Under the pieces are notes generated by a model. The model was not told the DNA's origin and did no database searches. It saw only the letters and a program-made list of their open reading frames with translations. DNA of 34,553 nt from Anaerolineae bacterium (lineage in GTDB: Bacteria; Chloroflexota; Anaerolineae; S016-19). Where the stretch lies: the NCBI GenBank assembly GCA_015486235.1, contig WFSD01000267.1, positions 1 to 34,553 of the forward strand, given 5' to 3'. Below, piece after piece: positions 2,796-29,240 of the stretch; the first letter of the stretch is position 1; the number at the start of each line of letters is the position of its first letter. Both the position numbers and the translations under genes were made by a program.

Positions 2796-3590
2796 TCACG
2801 GATACGCGAATCGCTCGATCGCTCTCCGTATACGACGCTCCAGCTGTCGGAACTCTGCGTCCTCCAGCAGAGATAGCTCCCTTGGACGTGGGAGATAAAC
2901 ATGGACCTCTGCAGCCACCACTGCGGGACGGGGTGTCAGCACCAGAACGTGATCCGCCAGAAAGACCGCCTCCGTGATGCTGTGGGTAACCATGACGACG
3001 GTTTGACCATGCTTGCGCCACAGACGTAACAGTTCCAGGTTCATCTTCTCCCTGGTCATTGCATCGAGGGAAGCAAAAGGCTCGTCGAGAAGGAGCATCC
3101 GAGGACGTTGGATGAGCGCCCGCGCCAGGGCAACACGCTGCTGCATCCCGCCTGAAAGCTGAACAGGGTATGCTTTCTCGAAGCCCTCCAGTCCCACCTG
3201 CCGGCAGAACGCCCTCGCCCGTTTTTCCGCCTCATCCTTCGGGATATGCGCTACTTCCAATGGCAGCATGATGTTCCGGAGGACAGTACGCCACGGCATC
3301 AGGTTCGATTTCTGGAACAGAAAGCCGATATCTGACCGTGGGCCGCTCAAGTGCTCTCCCGCAAACCACACCTCGCCGCGGGATGGCCTGAGCTGCCCGC
3401 CCAGGATACGGAGGAGAGTGGTCTTTCCGCAGCCGGACGGGCCAACAACGGTGACGAATTCCCGGACGTTGGCGGAGAAAGAAACATCTCCAAGTGCTTG
3501 AAGATCGTTCCCATCTTGGTCTCTGAAATAATGCACGAGTCCTTTTGCCACCAGAAGTGGCCCGCCGTCGTGAGGAATGACATTACTCAT
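2796..3590 (-). CDS. ABC transporter ATP-binding protein of the NitT/TauT-like class; likely part of a riboflavin/flavin-precursor importer
   Basis: Walker A GPSGCGKTTLL, signature LSGGMQQRVALARAL, Walker B MLLLDEPFASLD. Start set at MSNVIPHDGG (ATG 3590-3588), whose ATGA overlaps the stop of the upstream gene. Confidence 0.9.
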   Translation of the reverse strand: MSNVIPHDGGPLLVAKGLVHYFRDQDGNDLQALGDVSFSANVREFVTVVGPSGCGKTTLLRILGGQLRPSRGEVWFAGEHLSGPRSDIGFLFQKSNLMPWRTVLRNIMLPLEVAHIPKDEAEKRARAFCRQVGLEGFEKAYPVQLSGGMQQRVALARALIQRPRMLLLDEPFASLDAMTREKMNLELLRLWRKHGQTVVMVTHSITEAVFLADHVLVLTPRPAVVAAEVHVYLPRPRELSLLEDAEFRQLERRIRRAIERFAYP

Positions 3591-4570
3591 TTGACAAATT
3601 CGTTGGTGTAGCACAAGTTGGGGTCTACATTTTTCTCTATCAGGCCTGCCGCTTTCATGAACTTGATGGTGCCGGCCCATGCCTCAGGAGTGGAGACCCC
3701 CAAAGTCCCCTCGTCGCGCCAGAGCTTCAATGCCTCGTCGAATACCGCACGATTCACTTTCTTTTGATGTTCGTCCTTTCCCGCCTCCGGCACATACTTC
3801 AGGCTGATGTCGAACGCCTCGTCGGGATTGTCAAGGGTATCCCGTAGCCCATGGAGCGTAGCCTGCACCAGGTCTCTCACCCAGTCAGGGTGATCTTTTA
3901 TCACCTTTTCGCTGGTTATTATCCCGTTGGATGGAATGTCGATGTAATCGGACACGGGGATGACATTCACATCCTTTCCTTCGAGTCGGAGCTGGACTGG
4001 CCCGTTGACGGAGTAATCCAGCGCTGCGTCAACCTGTCCGGAACTGACCGCCGCTGCCTGAGTGTAGCCGATGGACGTGAGGGTGATCTTGCTCTCGTCC
4101 AGGCCGGCCGAATAGATCAACCCTTTCCAACCGATGTAGCTGGCACCGTAGAGACCGGGTATCCCGACTTTTTTCCCCTCCAGGTCTTTGGGTTTCTCGA
4201 TTCCTCGATTCTTTAGAGAGAAAACGACCACGGGGAAATGGCGGTACCACCGCATCACGTATACCACTGGCAGCTCCCTGGCCCGTCCCAGGATCACTTC
4301 TTCGCCGCTTCCGACCATAAAAGGAATCTGATTTGTGCCTACCAGCTTTACCAAATCGGACTCGAATCCGTATTTGAACTTGATGCTTAGCCCTGCTTTC
4401 TTGTAATACCCCTTTTCTGTTGCCACGTAGAAAGGGGCAAACTGGACATTCGGGATGTATCCCATGGCCAAAGTAATTTCCCGAGGCTGCTTCCTGGCCT
4501 TTGGAACACATCCGGATGCTGCAAGGATGGTCACGACAACTACCAACAAGAACGACAAAGCTTTTTTCAT
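3587..4570 (-). CDS. NMT1/THI5-like ABC substrate-binding lipoprotein (RibY-like)
   Basis: 327 aa; lipobox-like signal MKKALSFLLVVVVTILAASGC; ITLAMGYIPNVQFAPFYVATEKGYYKKAGL typical of NMT1/THI5 binding proteins; downstream of an FMN riboswitch. Confidence 0.88.
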   Translation of the reverse strand: MKKALSFLLVVVVTILAASGCVPKARKQPREITLAMGYIPNVQFAPFYVATEKGYYKKAGLSIKFKYGFESDLVKLVGTNQIPFMVGSGEEVILGRARELPVVYVMRWYRHFPVVVFSLKNRGIEKPKDLEGKKVGIPGLYGASYIGWKGLIYSAGLDESKITLTSIGYTQAAAVSSGQVDAALDYSVNGPVQLRLEGKDVNVIPVSDYIDIPSNGIITSEKVIKDHPDWVRDLVQATLHGLRDTLDNPDEAFDISLKYVPEAGKDEHQKKVNRAVFDEALKLWRDEGTLGVSTPEAWAGTIKFMKAAGLIEKNVDPNLCYTNEFVK

Positions 4571-4636
4571 CGGTCGATATTTACCTCCGTCAGTGTGTAG
4601 TGATAATTCCAGACGACCCGCAGGTCGTGGTCCGCG

Positions 4637-5467
4637 TCATCTTGCGCGCTGCCAGCGCAGCAGCACCCATTCCATCGTCAGGACTGTCAGGTAAAGGATC
4701 AGTGCGATCACCACGAGAGTGATGATAGTGGCAAATAGCAGTGGCGTATCCAATGTGCCGCGGGCCAGATTTATCAGGAATCCCAGGCCTCTGTCTGCTC
4801 CAATGAACTCCCCCACCACTGCACCTATGACTGCCAGGGTGACGCTCACCCGCAGCCCCCCTAGCAGTACCGGCATCGCTGCCGGGACTTCCAGCATCCG
4901 GAACGTCTGCCAACGGCTGGCATTCAACGACTGCATCAGCTCCCGTAGGTCGTTGTCCACCGATCGGATCCCCACGAGGGTGTTCACTAGTGAGGGAAAG
5001 AAAACCGTGATGGCGCACACAAGCACTTTCGAGATGCTCCCAAAGCCGAACCATATGATGAAAAGGGGCGCAATTGCCACCACCGGGATGGATTGGGACG
5101 CCACGATGTAAGGAGTCAGCAAGTGCTCGATAGACCTGGATTTCGCCAGAAGATAGCCAAGAGTAGTAGCAGTCACCAGGCCGAGCACCAGCCCAAGGAT
5201 AATCTCCTCCATTGTCAGGGAAGTGTGGTACACGAGGCTGCCATCTTTGAGCATCAAGAGGAGTTTCTGCGCCACCAGGACAGGTGAAGGCAGGATAAAT
5301 GCCGGATAATGCTTCCAACTGACCAGCGCTTGCCACAAACCAAGGAGCATTGCGAGTCCCATGGGAAAGAACACATAATCTGCGTGTCGGCGTAGGCACT
5401 CACCGCAGGGAACTCCTCGTTCCCCAGATCTGCGCGCCGCTTTTATCAACCAACTATCGATTGCCAT
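4637..5467 (-). CDS. ABC transporter permease of the BPD/SsuC class (RibX-like)
   Basis: Multiple TM segments; EAA-like loop ELMQSLNASRWQTFRMLEVPAAMPVLLGGLRVS. Start set at MAIDSWLIKAARR (ATG 5467); the longer ORF N-terminus reads through leader RNA. Confidence 0.88.
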   Translation of the reverse strand: MAIDSWLIKAARRSGERGVPCGECLRRHADYVFFPMGLAMLLGLWQALVSWKHYPAFILPSPVLVAQKLLLMLKDGSLVYHTSLTMEEIILGLVLGLVTATTLGYLLAKSRSIEHLLTPYIVASQSIPVVAIAPLFIIWFGFGSISKVLVCAITVFFPSLVNTLVGIRSVDNDLRELMQSLNASRWQTFRMLEVPAAMPVLLGGLRVSVTLAVIGAVVGEFIGADRGLGFLINLARGTLDTPLLFATIITLVVIALILYLTVLTMEWVLLRWQRAR

Positions 5468-5494
5468 TTCTTCTATCTCCAGTCCGGGGACGAA

Positions 5495-5523
5495 GAAAAA
5501 ACCCCCGGAGTTTCCTTCGGGGG
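5495..5523 (-). terminator. Second leader terminator upstream of the permease gene
   Basis: Minus RNA CCCCCGAAGGAAACTCCGGGGGUUUUUU: 6-bp GC stem (5502-5507/5518-5523), GAAA loop, six U. Confidence 0.75.
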
Positions 5524-5575
5524 CAGGGGGCAAGATCGCGTGCAGCATACGTTCCCCTCCGGGCCCTGCTCGAAA

Positions 5576-5607
5576 CAAAAACCCCGTGAGCAGAGGCCCT
5601 CGGGGTT
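5576..5607 (-). terminator. First leader terminator downstream of the FMN aptamer
   Basis: Minus RNA AACCCCGAGGGCCTCTGCTCACGGGGTTTTTG: AACCCCG/CGGGGTT stem (5580-5586/5601-5607) followed by a U-run. Confidence 0.7.
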
Positions 5608-5651
5608 CGAACGCAAGCCGCACCACGCGCCATCAGGCACGCAATGCAACG

Positions 5652-5810
5652 ACCTTCTCCCATCCGGACTATACCGTCGGCTCTGGATTTGCCGGATCCG
5701 GCTCACCAGATCAGTCCTCGTACTTTTCACGAGGGCTCGCGGGCTTGGCGCTCATGCGCTTTACCGCCGGTCGGGAATTGGCCTGTCAGGCCTCACCCTG
5801 CCCCGAAGGT
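5652..5810 (-). ncRNA. FMN riboswitch (RFN element)
   Basis: Minus strand: CCTTCGGGGCAGGGTGA...CAATTCCCGACCGGCGGTAAAGCGC...AAGCCCGCGAGCC...GCCGACGGTATAGTCCGGATGGGAGAAGG; matches the conserved RFN consensus blocks in order. Confidence 0.96.
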
Positions 5811-5868
5811 CTTCATCTTATTTGGTTGTACGGCTGGCCAACGATCCTCACTGCCAGCACACTTTCAC

Positions 5869-5982: not shown

Positions 5983-6013
5983 GGGTAGCGGAGGGCATTG
6001 TCCTCCGCTACCC
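5983..6013. repeat. Intergenic palindrome between divergent promoters
   Basis: GGGTAGCGGAGG (5983-5994) / CCTCCGCTACCC (6002-6013), 7-nt loop. Confidence 0.8.
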
Positions 6014-6052: not shown

Positions 6053-6080
6053 TTGACAAGCCGGGAAACGTGTGTTAAAT
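6053..6080 (+). promoter_or_regulatory. Promoter for the lys leader/operon
   Basis: TTGACA (6053-6058), 16-nt spacer, TTAAAT (6075-6080); alternative -10 TAAATT with a 17-nt spacer. Confidence 0.65.
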
Positions 6081-6109
6081 TTGCTTTCAAATTCAGACAG
6101 GTGTGGATC

Positions 6110-6178
6110 ATGTTCATGATTGGGATTTCCACCAAGAAGCAGGTGAAGAAGCAGATGCCGGACCCGGGGGTCTGGTAG
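6110..6178 (+). CDS. Candidate lysine-rich leader peptide (attenuator) MFMIGISTKKQVKKQMPDPGVW
   Basis: SD-like AGGTG at 6099-6103; 22 codons; paired Lys codons AAG AAG at 6134-6139 and 6146-6151; stop TAG 6176-6178 directly after an RNA pairing segment. Confidence 0.7.
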   Translation: MFMIGISTKKQVKKQMPDPGVW

Positions 6179-6228
6179 GCCTTGCCTTGCCCGCTTCGAT
6201 AGGCTGATTGCAACCGGCTTCCAGACCC
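6158..6228 (+). promoter_or_regulatory. Attenuator pairing segments: 1 = 6158-6164, 2 = 6168-6175, 3 = 6221-6228
   Basis: Segment 2 GGGTCTGG is perfectly complementary to segment 3 CCAGACCC, which overlaps the terminator 5' arm and loop. Segment 1 CCGGACC can pair with GGTCTGG (one G-U). Confidence 0.65.
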
Positions 6229-6245
6229 TGGAAGCCGGTTTTTTT
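6212..6245 (+). terminator. Intrinsic terminator of the lys attenuator
   Basis: AACCGGCTTCCA (6212-6223) - GACCC - TGGAAGCCGGTT (6229-6240); perfect 12-bp stem; T7 run 6239-6245. Confidence 0.9.
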
Positions 6246-6254
6246 ATGCGGAGT

Positions 6255-6285
<31 letters not shown>

Positions 6286-6319
6286 TCACCGGAAATTCTA
6301 AAAAGGAGGAGGGATCGAA

Positions 6320-6487
6320 ATGACCAAGTTCGTGTGTCCTGAGTGCGAAGCAGAGTTCGAGCTATTCGACGTGATGAAAGGTGAGTTGGTGACCTGCCCC
6401 GAGTGTGGTGTGGACCTGGAGGTGGTCTCGCTAGACCCACCAAAGGTGGAGCTGGCGCCCGAGGAAGAGGAAGACTGGGGGGAGTGA
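6320..6487 (+). CDS. lysW: Alpha-aminoadipate carrier protein LysW
   Basis: [55 protein letters not shown]: two CPEC zinc motifs and the EDWGE C-terminus; SD AGGAGGAGGG upstream. Absent from the ORF track because of its small size. Confidence 0.96.
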
Positions 6488-6488
6488 G

Positions 6489-7364
6489 ATGCACGTAGGC
6501 GTTCTTGCCTCCATCATCAGGAAGGAGGAAAAGCTGATCTTCCATGCCCTGAGTGACCGGGGCGTGACCTGGGAAGTCATAGACGACCGGGAGGTGCAGT
6601 TCGACCTGGAGAACGGCGACCGCTACCGCCAGTTCGACGTGATCCTGGAGCGGGCCGTGAACCACTCCCGAGCACTCTACGCCCTCAGGGTCTTCGGCAT
6701 GTGGGGCATCCCCACGGTCAACACGTATCATGTGGCGGAGACTTGCGGAAACAAAATACTCACAACGGCAGCGCTGATGGAAGCAGGAGTCCCGACGCCG
6801 CGGACCACCATCGCTTTCACACCGGCGTCTGCCCTGGACGCTATCGAGAAGATGGGGTATCCGGTGGTGCTGAAGCCGGCCGTCGGCTCCTGGGGACGGC
6901 TCCTCTCCAAAATCAACGACCGCGATGCAGCCGAGGCTGTTCTGGAGCACAAGAAAATCCTGGGCACATACCACCACTCGATCTTCTACATCCAGGAGTA
7001 CGTGCACAAGCCGCAGCGGGACATCCGGGCTTTTGTGGTGGGGGACCAGACCATCGCGGCCATCTACCGGTCGTCGTCCCACTGGATCACGAACACCGCC
7101 AGGGGCGGCAAAGCCAGCTACTGTCCCATCACACCTGAGCTGAACGACATCTGCGTTCAAGCGGCGAAAGCCGTGGGCGGCGGTGTAGTCGCCATCGACG
7201 TTTTCGAGGACCCGGAGCGGGGACTGCTGGTGAACGAGGTCAATTACACCATGGAGTTCCGAAACAGCATCGAACCGACGGGGGTGGACATCCCCGGTAA
7301 GATCGTGGACTTCACCCTGCGGGTGGCAGAGGAGGGATGGCCCACGGCAAACGGCTGGAGATGA
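6489..7364 (+). CDS. lysX: Alpha-aminoadipate-LysW ligase LysX (ATP-grasp)
   Basis: 291 aa ATP-grasp; follows lysW; contains [34 protein letters not shown]. Confidence 0.93.
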
Positions 7365-7367
7365 TGC

Positions 7368-8414
7368 ATGGTTAGGGCGAGCATTGTTGGAGGCTCTGGT
7401 TACGTGGGCGGCGAACTCCTGCGGCTGTTGCTGGGGCACCCTGAGGTGAAGGTGGTCCAGGTTACCAGCGAGCGACACGCGGGGAAGATGGTCCACAGCC
7501 GCCATCCGAATCTGCGGGACAGGACGCCCCTTCGGTTCGTGGGGATGGATCGGCTGGAACCGGTGGATCTGCTCTTCCTGGCGCTGCCGCATGGAGAGGC
7601 CCAGAAACGGATCGATTGTTTTGCCTCCCTTGCCCCGCGGATCGTGGATCTGAGCGCCGACTTCCGGCTGAAGGACCCGGCGGCGTACAGCCGCTGGTAC
7701 GGCAAAGAGCACGCCGCCCCCGACTGGTTGGGCCGTTTCGTGTACGGCCTGCCAGAGCTCTACCGTGACGAGATCCGGGGGGCGCGGTACGTCTCCGGGG
7801 TGGGATGCAATGCCACGGCGACGACCCTGGCGGTGTGGCCGCTCTTCAAATCCGGCCTGGCAGACCCCCGTCGCGACCTGGTGGCCGAGGTGAAAGTCGG
7901 CTCCAGCGAGGGGGGCAACGCGCCCTCCGAGGCATCCCACCATCCGGAGCGGAGCCACGCCGTCCGATCCTACGCCCCTGTGGGACATCGGCACACCGCG
8001 GAGGTGATCCAGAACCTGGCGCTGGCCGGGGACGTGCCGCCGGTCCACCTCTCGGTGACGGCGGTGGATCTGGTGCGTGGTGCGCTGGCGACGGCTCACG
8101 TCTTCCTGCGGGAGCCTGCGGACGAGAAGATCGTCCGGCGGGCGTACCGCCGGGCATACGCGGAGGAGCCTTTCGTTCGGATCGTGGCGGCAAAAGTGGG
8201 GATCTACCGGATGCCGGAGCCGAAGATCCTGGCGGGAAGCAACTACGCGGACGTGGGGTTCGCGGTGGACGAGGAGACACGACGCGTGGTGGCTGTGGCT
8301 GCTATAGACAACCTGATGAAAGGCGCGGCCGGCGCAGCGGTTCAGTGTATGAACCTGATGTTGGGGTTCGAGGAGACGCTGGGGTTGGAATTCCCGGGCC
8401 TGCATCCGATCTAG
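7368..8414 (+). CDS. lysY: LysW-gamma-aminoadipate-6-phosphate reductase (ArgC-like)
   Basis: 348 aa; N-terminal GGSGYVGGELLRLLLGHPEV; catalytic region SGVGCNATATTLAVWPL. Confidence 0.94.
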   Translation: MVRASIVGGSGYVGGELLRLLLGHPEVKVVQVTSERHAGKMVHSRHPNLRDRTPLRFVGMDRLEPVDLLFLALPHGEAQKRIDCFASLAPRIVDLSADFRLKDPAAYSRWYGKEHAAPDWLGRFVYGLPELYRDEIRGARYVSGVGCNATATTLAVWPLFKSGLADPRRDLVAEVKVGSSEGGNAPSEASHHPERSHAVRSYAPVGHRHTAEVIQNLALAGDVPPVHLSVTAVDLVRGALATAHVFLREPADEKIVRRAYRRAYAEEPFVRIVAAKVGIYRMPEPKILAGSNYADVGFAVDEETRRVVAVAAIDNLMKGAAGAAVQCMNLMLGFEETLGLEFPGLHPI

Positions 8415-8834: not shown

Positions 8835-9050
8835 TTGGACGAATTAGAACGAATCGTTCGGAGTTTCGAACAGAAATACGAATGCGACCTGCCGACCTTC
8901 CTCGCTCGTGTAACATCCGGCGAAAATTACGCGGCTCGTTTGCGTCGCGTGAGCCCAACCTGGGAAGGCGATCTGCAGGAGTGGGAATTCTACGCCGGCG
9001 AGCTGGATGCTAGACAAAAGGGACAAAGCAAATGGGAATCATCGTCGTGA
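8835..9050 (+). CDS. Small protein resembling orphan antitoxin-like proteins, between lysY and lysZ
   Basis: TTG start with SD AGGAAGG 8 nt upstream; MDELERIVRSFEQKYECDLPTFLARVTSGENYAARLRRVSPTWEGDLQEWEFYAGELDA...; acidic and protein-like; overlaps the lysZ start. Confidence 0.5.
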   Translation: MDELERIVRSFEQKYECDLPTFLARVTSGENYAARLRRVSPTWEGDLQEWEFYAGELDARQKGQSKWESSS

Positions 9051-9841
9051 AAATCGGCGGGGGCCTCGACCTGGACCACGACGCCATCGCCGACGACATC
9101 GCAGGGATGTGGCAGGAAGGGCAGCAGTTGGTGGTGGTCCACGGCGGGGCAGAGCTGACCAATCAGGTGGCGGAAGCGCTGGGGCACCCGCCCAGGTTCG
9201 TCACTTCCGTCAGCGGCTACGTCTCCCGCCGCACGGACCGCCGCGCCCTGGAAATCTTCGAGATGGTGTACTGCGGCCAGCTCAACAAAGGCTGGGTGGA
9301 ACGGTTCCAGCGCCGCGGGGTGAACGCTGTCGGCCTGAGCGGGCTGGATGGCAGGCTCTGGGAAGGCCCCAGGAAAAAAGCGATCCGGATCGTGGAGAAC
9401 GGCCGGAAGATGGTGCTCAGGGACGATTACACCGGCAAGGTGGAGCGGGTCGACACGGCCCTGCTGACCACGCTGCTGGAAGGCGGTTACCTGCCGGTGC
9501 TGACGCCGCCAGCCATTAGCTACGACGGCGAGGCGCTCAACGTGGATGGGGACCGCGCCGCGGCCATGACCGCTCAGGCGATGAGAGCGGAAGCCCTGGT
9601 CATCCTGAGTGGCGTTCCCGGACTTCTGGCCGACTTCCCGGACGAATCCAGCCTGATCCGCCGGATACAGTCCGACGAGATCGAGGATTTCATGTCGGTG
9701 GCCGAAGGCCGGATGAAGAAGAAGGTGATGGGTGCTGGCGAGGCGCTGCGAGGCGGCGTCGGCCGGGTGATCTTCGCCGACGGGCGGGTGCGAGAGCCGG
9801 TGCGCCGGGCGCTGTCCGGCGAGGGCACGGTCATCGGGTAG
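9032..9841 (+). CDS. lysZ: LysW-aminoadipate kinase (ArgB-like)
   Basis: 269 aa; MGIIVVKIGGGLDLD, QLVVVHGGAELTNQVAEALG, ALNVDGDRAAAMTAQAMRAEALVILSGVPGLL. Confidence 0.95.
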   Translation: MGIIVVKIGGGLDLDHDAIADDIAGMWQEGQQLVVVHGGAELTNQVAEALGHPPRFVTSVSGYVSRRTDRRALEIFEMVYCGQLNKGWVERFQRRGVNAVGLSGLDGRLWEGPRKKAIRIVENGRKMVLRDDYTGKVERVDTALLTTLLEGGYLPVLTPPAISYDGEALNVDGDRAAAMTAQAMRAEALVILSGVPGLLADFPDESSLIRRIQSDEIEDFMSVAEGRMKKKVMGAGEALRGGVGRVIFADGRVREPVRRALSGEGTVIG

Positions 9842-10145: not shown

Positions 10146-11315
10146 ATGGAAACCGAAAAAATTTTCACGCTGGAGAATGCCCATACGTCGGGGGCGTACG
10201 CCAAGCGCCCCGCGGCGCTAGTGCGGGGAAAGGGCGCACGCGTCTGGGATTCCGATGGGCGTGAGTACATCGATTGTATCGGCGGGCACGGGGTGGCCGT
10301 GGTGGGCCATGCCCATCCGGCGGTGGTCAGGGCAATCTCGGAGCAGGCGGAGCGGATGATCATCTGCCCGGAGTCGTTCTACAACGACCGCCGTGCCGAA
10401 CTATACGAACGCCTGAGCCGCCACACCCCCGACGGCCTGAACCGATTCTTCCTGTGCAACTCCGGAGCCGAAGCGGTGGAGGGGGCCATCAAGGCCGCCA
10501 GGTACTTCACCGGCCGCCCCGGAATCGTGGCGATGAAATCCGGGTTCCACGGCAGAACCCTGGGCGCGCTGAGCGCAACCTGGAACCCAAAATACCGGAA
10601 GCCTTTCGAGCCGCTGCTGGCGGGCTTCCAACACGTGTCTTTCGGAGATCTGGATGCAGCGGATCGGGCGGTCGGCGACGACACCGCTGCGGTCATCGTG
10701 GAACCGGTGCAGGGGGAAGGCGGGGTCAACCCGGGATCGGCAGCTTTCTTCGACGGTCTGCGCCGCATCTGCGATGAGCGGGGGGCGCTCCTCATCGCGG
10801 ACGAGGTGCAGACGGGGTTCGGGCGCACCGGACGCTGGTTCGCCGTCGAGCATTTCGGCCTGGCGCCGGACATCATGGTCCTGGGCAAGGGGATCGCCGG
10901 GGGCGTGCCCGCCGGAGCTGTCGTGTGGCACAGACGCCTGGGAACGCTGAAACCGGGCATCCACGGGAGCACTTTCGGCGGCAATCCCCTGGCCGCGGCC
11001 GCGGCCATCGCCACGGTCCATGTTCTGGAGGAGGAGCGGCTACCGGAGAGGGCCAACCGTCTGGGGACATGGCTCCTGGCGGAACTGCGGCAAATCCGTT
11101 CCCCGGTGGTGAAAGAGGTGCGGGGGCTGGGGCTGATGGTGGGCATAGCGCTGCGGGTTCGCGTCACGCCGGTGCTGCGGGACCTGATGAAGAAAAGCGT
11201 ACTGGCGCTTCCTGCGGGTCCCACGGTGCTCAGGCTGCTGCCGCCGTTGGTTATCGAGGAAGAAGACCTGCAGGCCGCGGCGGCGGCGATCAGGGAGGTG
11301 CTGGAAAGTGTTTGA
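10146..11315 (+). CDS. lysJ: LysW-aminoadipate semialdehyde aminotransferase (ArgD-like)
   Basis: 389 aa; GAEAVEGAIKAARYFTGRPGIVAMKSGFHGRTLGALSATW, LLIADEVQTGFGRTGRWFAVEHFGLAPDIMVLGKGIAGGVP. Confidence 0.94.
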   Translation: METEKIFTLENAHTSGAYAKRPAALVRGKGARVWDSDGREYIDCIGGHGVAVVGHAHPAVVRAISEQAERMIICPESFYNDRRAELYERLSRHTPDGLNRFFLCNSGAEAVEGAIKAARYFTGRPGIVAMKSGFHGRTLGALSATWNPKYRKPFEPLLAGFQHVSFGDLDAADRAVGDDTAAVIVEPVQGEGGVNPGSAAFFDGLRRICDERGALLIADEVQTGFGRTGRWFAVEHFGLAPDIMVLGKGIAGGVPAGAVVWHRRLGTLKPGIHGSTFGGNPLAAAAAIATVHVLEEERLPERANRLGTWLLAELRQIRSPVVKEVRGLGLMVGIALRVRVTPVLRDLMKKSVLALPAGPTVLRLLPPLVIEEEDLQAAAAAIREVLESV

Positions 11316-12384
11316 CCACGAAGAAGCGATAGCACTGCTGGAAGGTCTCGTCCGGATGCCCAGCCCATCTGGGCAGGAGCGGTCGGCAAGCGAGTTTCTG
11401 GTCTCGTGGATGGCCGGGCACGGGATGGACGCGGCCGTGGACGAGGCAGGGAACGCCGTGGGAACGAAAGGGCATGGCGAGAAGGAAATCCTGCTCCTGG
11501 GGCACATAGACACGTTTCCGGGGAACCCGCCGGTCCGCCGGGAAGGGGACTTGCTGTACGGGCGGGGGAGCGTGGATGCCAAAGGGCCGCTGGCGACGTT
11601 CGCCGCGGCCGCGGCGAGCGTGAGGCCGCCAGAGGGGTGGCGGATCACGGTGGTGGGCGCGGTGGAAGAGGAAGCGGCGACGAGCAAAGGGGCCCGGCAC
11701 GTGCTCGCGCAGCGCCCGACGGGGCCTGTGGCGTGCGTCATCGGCGAGCCGAGCCGCTGGGACAGGATCACGCTGGGATACAAAGGCCGGCTGTTGCTGG
11801 ATTTGCGGATGCGGGCGCCGTTCAGCCATTCGGCCGGGGTGGGAGCGCTGCCGCCGGAGCGGGCCGTCGCCCTGTGGCAGCGGGTGGTGGATCACACCGG
11901 GCGGTTCAACGAGGGGCGTCGGAAGGCGTTCGACCGGCTCATGCCCTCCCTCCGGCGCATCGTCACGTCGGACGAGGGAGCTTATGGGGTCGCCGAGATG
12001 ACGATGGGGTTCCGCCTGCCGCCGGACCTGCCGCCGGAAGCGCTGGAGACAGACCTCAGGCGGCTGCTATCGCCTGAGGATGGCGTGGAGGTTACGCTGG
12101 CGTTCCGGGGGCACGAGCGGGCCTATCGAGCGGCCAGGAACACGCCGCTGGTGCGGGCGTTCCTGAGCGCGATCCGGGCGGAAGGGGGCGAGCCGCGCTT
12201 CGTGGTCAAGACCGGCACATCGGATATGAATGTGGTGGGCCCCCACTGGTCCGACACGGCGATGGTGGCATATGGTCCAGGCGATTCCAGCCTGGATCAC
12301 ACACCGGGGGAGTATACCCACCTGAGCGAGTACCTCCGGGCCATCGGTGTGCTACGGCGGGCGCTGGCGGACATAAGCCGATGA
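11308..12384 (+). CDS. lysK: LysW-lysine hydrolase (ArgE/DapE-like M20 peptidase)
   Basis: 358 aa; overlaps lysJ by 8 nt; LLGHIDTFPG, GRGSVDAKGPLATFAAAAA, EEEAATSKGARH. Confidence 0.94.
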   Translation: MFDHEEAIALLEGLVRMPSPSGQERSASEFLVSWMAGHGMDAAVDEAGNAVGTKGHGEKEILLLGHIDTFPGNPPVRREGDLLYGRGSVDAKGPLATFAAAAASVRPPEGWRITVVGAVEEEAATSKGARHVLAQRPTGPVACVIGEPSRWDRITLGYKGRLLLDLRMRAPFSHSAGVGALPPERAVALWQRVVDHTGRFNEGRRKAFDRLMPSLRRIVTSDEGAYGVAEMTMGFRLPPDLPPEALETDLRRLLSPEDGVEVTLAFRGHERAYRAARNTPLVRAFLSAIRAEGGEPRFVVKTGTSDMNVVGPHWSDTAMVAYGPGDSSLDHTPGEYTHLSEYLRAIGVLRRALADISR

Positions 12385-28844: not shown

Positions 28845-28878
28845 AAAAAGGCCACTGCCCCGGGGCAGTGGCCTTTTT
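28845..28878 (-). terminator. Terminator in the TPP-riboswitch leader
   Basis: Perfect 34-bp palindrome AAAAAGGCCACTGCCCCGGGGCAGTGGCCTTTTT. Confidence 0.92.
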
Positions 28879-28891
28879 CGCGTCGCCGTAA

Positions 28892-29000
28892 GCATTCCCT
28901 ACGCCAGCATTACCCAGGTCAGGTTCCAAGGGTCGGAGACGGGTGAGGCAACAACCTCAAGAGCTCCCTCTCAGCCGGGCATCCCCCCAGCTCCCCTAGC
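28892..29000 (-). ncRNA. TPP riboswitch (THI element)
   Basis: Minus strand: CTAGGGGAGCTGGGGGGATGCCCGGCTGAGAGGGAG...GACCCTTGGAACCTGACCTGGGTAATGCTGGCGTAGGGAATGC; matches THI-box CTGAGA and ACCTGA..GGGTAATGC.GCGTAGGGA. Confidence 0.96.
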
Positions 29001-29240
29001 ACATATTCGGTTGTCAATCTCCTGCAGTCACCACGCTCAACCGTGATGATTGCATGGCATCTCCTTGCCATCCTTAGGATGTAGTCTCGGCATGTCGCCT
29101 GCAGGCCGAACGAAAGCCGTAGAGCAGGATGTGGCTTGCTCCACACCCAGGTGCGATTCTACTTTCCTGCTTCACCCAAATTTTAATCAAGCCTGCGGGA
29201 AAGTGCAAGAAAGATGAAGGCCCGGGAGAGCGAAGCAGTT

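Follow-up and report, generated by a model that had tools for sequence, protein, structure and literature searches.

A probable lysine-codon attenuator upstream of the lysW operon of an Anaerolineae bacterium and its apparent relatives across the Chloroflexota

The lysW Locus and Its Leader

The window analyzed here is a stretch of 34,553 nucleotides from an Anaerolineae bacterium (GCA_015486235.1, contig WFSD01000267.1). It contains genes of the LysW-dependent (AAA) lysine pathway in the order lysW-lysX-lysY-lysZ-lysJ-lysK:

6320–6487, forward strand: lysW, first gene under the proposed regulation (TIGR01206 above cut-off)
6489–7364, forward strand: lysX (TIGR02144 above cut-off)
7368–8414, forward strand: lysY, argC family (NCBIfam)
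9032–9841, forward strand: lysZ, [LysW]-aminoadipate kinase (NF010659 above cut-off)
10146–11315, forward strand: lysJ (best match LysJ family, argD above cut-off)
11308–12384, forward strand: lysK, [LysW]-lysine hydrolase (NF003367 above cut-off)

These genes are preceded by a leader element at 6053–6245, which is composed of the following parts:

6053–6081, forward strand: sigma-70-type promoter, TTGACA, 17-nt spacer and TAAATT with TG (promoter scan)
6098–6104, forward strand: SD-like CAGGTGT ahead of the leader ATG (sequence reading)
6110–6178, forward strand: leader ORF MFMIGISTKKQVKKQMPDPGVW, 22 codons plus TAG (homologous in-frame Lys-rich leaders)
6134–6139, forward strand: Lys-Lys codon pair 1, AAG-AAG, putative sensor codons (sequence and homologues)
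6136–6151, forward strand: left arm of an outer stem that extends hairpin 1:2 and holds the Lys codons (folding and family permutation test)
6146–6151, forward strand: Lys-Lys codon pair 2, AAG-AAG, putative sensor codons (sequence and homologues)
6158–6164, forward strand: segment 1, CCGGACC (sequence and aligned copies)
6168–6175, forward strand: segment 2, GGGTCTGG (sequence and aligned copies)
6181–6197, forward strand: right arm of the outer stem, the anti-codon-region segment with a conserved CTTGC-type motif (folding and homologues)
6212–6245, forward strand: intrinsic terminator with a 13-pair stem, a 3-nt loop and a U tract (terminator scan and covariation)
6221–6228, forward strand: segment 3, CCAGACCC, antiterminator partner of segment 2 within the terminator apex (sequence and 110 leaders)

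The promoter proposed in an initial annotation of this DNA was recovered by the scan, with TTGACA starting at 6053 and the -10 element at about 6075–6081 (one promoter-like site found versus 0.2 expected in shuffles). The annotated 22-codon ORF with its SD-like site and two AAG-AAG pairs is likewise present, and its stop codon TAG (6176–6178) lies directly 3' of segment 2. Since the reading frame is also open 5' of the ATG at 6110, this codon is to be regarded as the presumed start. Within the ORF, the Lys codons at 6137 (K10) and 6149 (K14) are accompanied by Gln codons at 6140 and 6152. Folding of 6085–6250 yielded the hairpin expected from the complementarity of segments 1 and 2, together with the terminator (z = -2.33 versus shuffles), and paired the Lys codons with 6181–6197 in an outer extension of hairpin 1:2. 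Segments 2 and 3, which had been described as perfectly complementary, agree base for base. The proposed overlap of segment 3 with the terminator, whose 13-pair stem spans 6212–6240 and is followed by the T run, exists as well, but it is confined to the apex: segment 3 consists of the apical half of the 5' arm, the loop and the first base of the 3' arm, and does not take up the whole 5' arm.

Between the terminator and lysW, the window contains a near-perfect palindrome, GTAGGCGAAGGCAATGCCTTCGCCTAC (6257–6288), and a similar one is located upstream of the leader at 5986–6013. The former is a dispersed repeat; other contigs of the same genome and further genomes of the class hold many copies at 88–97% identity. 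It could add a further hairpin to the 5' UTR of lysW.

Distribution of Homologous Leaders

The block of Lys codons, hairpin and terminator recurs on a second contig of the same genome, directly 5' of lysW in an Anaerolineae MAG of the same genus (JALWAP010000038.1), and 5' of homocitrate synthase in a distant member of the class. In an alignment of the first copies, the Lys codons, the CCGGACC...GGTCTGG hairpin and the CCAGACC of the terminator are all retained. From four copies, Lys codons included, a covariance model (R1) was built; it matched 116 of 396 Anaerolineae (Chloroflexota) genomes at E ≤ 0.01, almost throughout 5' of hcs or lysW. Because homologues thus recur in the same genome, the same genus, a distant class member and 116 of the 396 class genomes, a chance origin of the block is excluded. 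R1 matches on the reverse strand of the terminator, and one upstream of an unrelated gene (L118), were discarded as false positives.

To remove the bias toward lysine, a second model (R2) was restricted to the part from segment 1 to the terminator and omitted the leader codons. It matched 181 of 396 class genomes at E ≤ 0.001 and, in a sample of the phylum, 40 of 400 at E ≤ 1e-4. The latter matches included other Chloroflexota families, with hcs, a homoaconitase-like lysT or argG downstream. The genes that follow homologous leaders mostly belong to the AAA lysine pathway, hcs, lysW or lysT being the downstream gene in 107 of 167 collected copies. When R2 was applied to 80 lysX loci (Acidobacteria, Planctomycetota, and others), strong matches were obtained solely where the locus carried an Anaerolineae or Chloroflexi/Chloroflexota label (L192, L196, L211, L268). 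The element was undetected in many class genomes that bear lysW (304 with lysW-like matches); many of the surveyed genomes are MAGs.

The second Lys-type copy in the genome of the window (L009, 1501–1610; contig C285:3136–3245) encodes the leader MRVFFMEKKQGKKQMPDRRSG* and is situated about 290 bp 5' of an ORF, MSDQAFRFREYTPK..., that is cut by the contig end. At about 15 loci, two putative attenuators are arranged in series (L035, L038, L046, L055, L056, L058, L063, L064, L074, L087, L098, L099, L108, L119, L120), typically 50–400 bp apart and mostly upstream of one lysine gene.

Sensor Codons and the Downstream Gene

Not all copies of this chassis carry lysine codons. Arg codons are found before argC or argG, and leaders of alaS and of proS operons contain Ala and Pro codons, respectively; the gene identities of alaS, proS (both types), argC, and argG were confirmed by NCBIfam. 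Even the copies retrieved with R1 include Arg-rich leaders before argC-argB and Pro-rich leaders before prolyl-tRNA synthetase or metallophosphoesterase genes, and the metallophosphoesterase operons continue into proS. The window's own genome possesses an Arg leader, which precedes an argC-argB-argD-like-argG gene row.

The Lys codons are conserved in the orthologous leaders, as is the reading frame together with the position of the stop codon. Among the first 162 copies, lysine made up 382 of 900 sensor codons before AAA genes versus 9 of 332 before arginine genes, and arginine 50 of 900 versus 124 of 332. Lysine exceeded arginine in 99 of 100 AAA leaders, and the reverse was true for 36 of 37 leaders of arginine genes. 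In the codon-blind set, the cognate residue accounted for 36% of the sensor codons in AAA leaders (K; 29 leaders), 37% in argC/argG leaders (R; 56 leaders), 48% in alaS leaders (A; 9 leaders; for example ...SAAAAAGQTEGLDCCAA*) and 39% in proS/mpe leaders (P; 6 leaders). It was the most frequent of K, R, A, and P in 25/29 AAA, 49/56 Arg (7 ties), 9/9 Ala, and 6/6 Pro leaders. A few AAA leaders are poor in lysine (L176, L169).

Several further copies were recorded. A metallophosphoesterase gene and an unnamed gene separate the Pro leader from proS in a conserved operon (L060, L079, L093, L097, L160, L300, L301). A Gln-rich leader, TSQQRGQQQPDRRSG, precedes a gene resembling LysE-family exporters by eye (L298, about 1435–1601) and is possibly a glutamine version of the attenuator, judged from this single case. 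Weak copies with a Pro-rich leader (L353) and with mixed Lys/Arg/Pro/Gln codons (L339 and L362) are located before ORFs that look, by eye, like citrate synthase and DRE-TIM metallolyases, respectively.

Conservation of the Alternative Pairings

An alignment of 110 copies shows standard pairing in 93.5% of the cells for hairpin 1:2 plus the base of the terminator; double-sided changes number 190, as against 50 in shuffles. Compensatory changes are present in the terminator (3:4), all seven outer pairs of which change on both sides; they are scarce in helix 1:2, most of which is invariant. The complementarity of segments 2 and 3 is conserved across 110 leaders, with 95.6% of cells paired and at most 49% when the segments are slid against each other. 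In 2:3, the strong conservation of both sides leaves few double-sided changes (7 cells). Matched versus permuted partners gave z values of 13.8 for 2:3, 10.6 for the outer stem and -0.9 for the control (119 dereplicated copies, shared ancestry uncorrected), and the family permutation test of the outer stem an observed value of 7.30 versus 6.19 ± 0.11. The partners in the outer stem change with the codons, as in AGCAAG/CTTGCT, GCCCGAGGC/GCCTGGGC, and GCCCAGC/GCTGGGC.

In computed folds of naked RNA, about 85% of copies adopt 1:2 and 85–90% the terminator. Once segment 1 is masked in the nascent RNA, 2:3 forms in 90% of the AAA and 95% of the Arg copies. When the A site of a ribosome is placed on the Lys codon at 6149 of the window's leader, the nascent RNA is predicted to adopt 2:3. 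Full-length RNA at equilibrium always favors the terminator, and antitermination must therefore be kinetic. The stop codon is placed at +18 from segment 1, just 3' of segment 2, in 64 of 100 AAA leaders, and at +6 or +9, within the loop of 1:2, in 23 further ones (87/100 in total). In some Arg leaders the ORF ends just 5' of segment 1, and a ribosome terminating there would cover this segment; in these, quick release, and not a waiting ribosome, would have to restore 1:2.

Proposed Mechanism and Alternative Explanations

The element at 6053–6245 combines a leader ORF with start codon, SD-like site and cognate codons, mutually exclusive 1:2, 2:3, and 3:4 pairings that are conserved in homologues, a stop codon placed for coverage of segment 2 (with exceptions among Arg leaders), and an intrinsic terminator ahead of a gene of the cognate pathway. 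We conclude that it very probably is a lysine-codon, ribosome-mediated transcription attenuator of the lysW operon. Codons, frame, pairings, and downstream pathway thus lend strong comparative support to the trp/his-type reading put forward in the initial annotation, with dependence on lysine as its prediction. Charged tRNA-Lys would be the sensed quantity. Transcription would start near 6088, followed by translation of the 22-codon leader. With ample Lys-tRNA, the ribosome would reach the TAG at 6176 and cover segment 2, or leave and allow 1:2 to reform; either way 2:3 would be blocked and the terminator at 6212–6245 would halt transcription. With scarce Lys-tRNA, the ribosome would wait on the AAG pairs, melt the outer stem and, presumably when held at the second pair (6146–6151), cover segment 1. 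Segment 2 could then pair with nascent segment 3, nucleation of the terminator would be blocked, and lysW-lysX and the genes beyond would be transcribed.

Three other explanations deserve consideration. The outer stem and 1:2 together constitute a long structured hairpin that forms without ribosomes, as would be expected if the leader were a metabolite riboswitch or a tRNA-binding leader (L-box, T-box) and the ORF incidental. Covariance models of the lysine riboswitch (RF00168) and the T-box (RF00230) found no match in the leader, nor did any other Rfam riboswitch at either gathering or relaxed threshold, in agreement with the initial annotation, in which no L-box was apparent. Moreover, the sensor codons vary in frame according to the gene that follows, a variation for which a ligand aptamer would have no need, and we regard this possibility as extremely remote. 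A constitutive terminator or a protein-binding RNA attenuator, with codons rich in lysine solely for the sake of outer-stem pairing, would be in line with the observed pairing between the Lys codon region and the conserved CTTGC motif. Yet the pairing partner changes jointly with the codons, it is codon identity and not pairing that follows the downstream gene, and the complementarity of 2:3 would serve no role with a constitutive terminator; this makes such an arrangement very improbable.

The leader peptide might also act by itself, as an arrest peptide or a functional small protein, and its conserved end (P-D-x-x-S-G or V-W) would then be the active part. These residues, however, are what segments 1 and 2 encode. 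The Ala leaders translate the two segments in a different frame (QTxGL...), in many hcs leaders a stop codon follows PD and shortens the ending, and the remaining peptide varies with the target gene. An active peptide is accordingly just as hard to credit as a terminator without a sensing ribosome. Given the natural codon swaps to Arg, Ala, and Pro, amino-acid sensing by a translating ribosome is therefore the sole economical reading.

The comparison of copies strongly supports the assignment of the lysW attenuator to a Chloroflexota-wide family with a shared chassis, in which the sensor codons (Lys, Arg, Ala, or Pro) correspond to the controlled gene. Judging by their shared sequence, common descent of the four versions appears likely as opposed to convergence. 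It is also reasonably probable, though with less certainty than for the lysW attenuator itself, that one ancestral chassis of the Chloroflexota had its codons rewritten repeatedly for Lys, Arg, Ala, and Pro, with alanyl- and prolyl-tRNA synthetases among the controlled targets and often with two copies in series. If true, this chassis would amount to a lineage-wide, codon-programmable amino-acid sensing system.

Comparison with Known Attenuators

Ribosome-mediated attenuation is a known class of mechanism. The closest known case is the lysine (hcs) gene cluster of Thermus thermophilus, for which leader-peptide attenuation has reportedly been described. That system is reported to share AAA-pathway lysine genes, a short leader peptide with Lys codons and alternative hairpins with the Chloroflexota leaders, but differs in phylum and leader sequence. 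Thermus is not known to have Arg, Ala, or Pro versions or tandem copies. Comparable within the Deinococcota is the lysS leader MTALATASKKPTAPPG* on a plasmid of Deinococcus sp. NW-56 (L306, 1326–1376), which contains Lys-Lys followed by a hairpin and a terminator; AAA-pathway attenuation may therefore exceed one phylum.

The trp, his, leu, thr, and phe attenuators of Proteobacteria resemble the Chloroflexota leaders in the abundance of the controlled amino acid, the exclusive 1:2/2:3/3:4 pairings, the stop by segment 2 and the intrinsic terminator. In contrast to these, the Chloroflexota chassis sequence serves four amino acids, and its sensor codons form part of an outer stem in which the opposite segment changes along with the codons. 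Leader-peptide attenuation has been seen as largely a proteobacterial speciality with a suggested gamma-proteobacterial origin, and when regulatory RNAs were surveyed in 2013 with Chloroflexi included, the attenuators drawn from Rfam were limited to His, Leu, Thr, and Trp (PMC3766115). None of these four leader families gave a gathering-level match in the window or in 20 loci of the family described here, and Rfam holds no family for the chassis. A survey of Actinobacteria predicted candidate attenuators for trp, trpS, and leuS; it reports no such case for operons of lysine or arginine and does not mention alanine or proline (PMC1262725). Like the Chloroflexota leaders, these candidates are predicted leader-peptide attenuators outside the Proteobacteria that include aminoacyl-tRNA synthetase genes; lineage, sequences, and the lysine and arginine targets set the Chloroflexota leaders apart.

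A search of the open-licence literature for Chloroflexota attenuators and Thermus lysine attenuation retrieved nothing relevant, and an earlier description elsewhere is possible. To the extent that this literature shows, the lineage-wide family, the exchangeable sensor codons, the alaS and proS targets and the frequent tandem copies appear to be new, and the suggestion that the architecture was undescribed for this lineage stands within the same bounds. Attenuation would thereby be extended, in a phylum that has received little study, to AAA-pathway lysine synthesis and to the synthetases for alanyl- and prolyl-tRNA. Hairpins that are kept while the sensor codons swap with the target gene represent a natural codon-swap experiment for the attenuation model, and the tandem copies offer a test case for serial attenuation. 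The covariance model is ready for the annotation of regulation in Chloroflexota MAGs.

Other RNA Elements in the Window

A match to the Rfam family anti-hemB at 6171–6247 was rejected (E 0.19, far below the gathering score). An FMN riboswitch (93 bits) at 5648–5814 on the reverse strand precedes genes for a permease, an NMT1-type binding protein, and an ABC ATPase at 2796–5626 on the same strand. The gene set looks like a riboflavin transporter of the RibXY kind; an ATPase gene is present in this case, whereas RibXY of Chloroflexi is said to lack one (PMC3766115). A TPP riboswitch at 28878–29007, also on the reverse strand, scored just above the gathering score.
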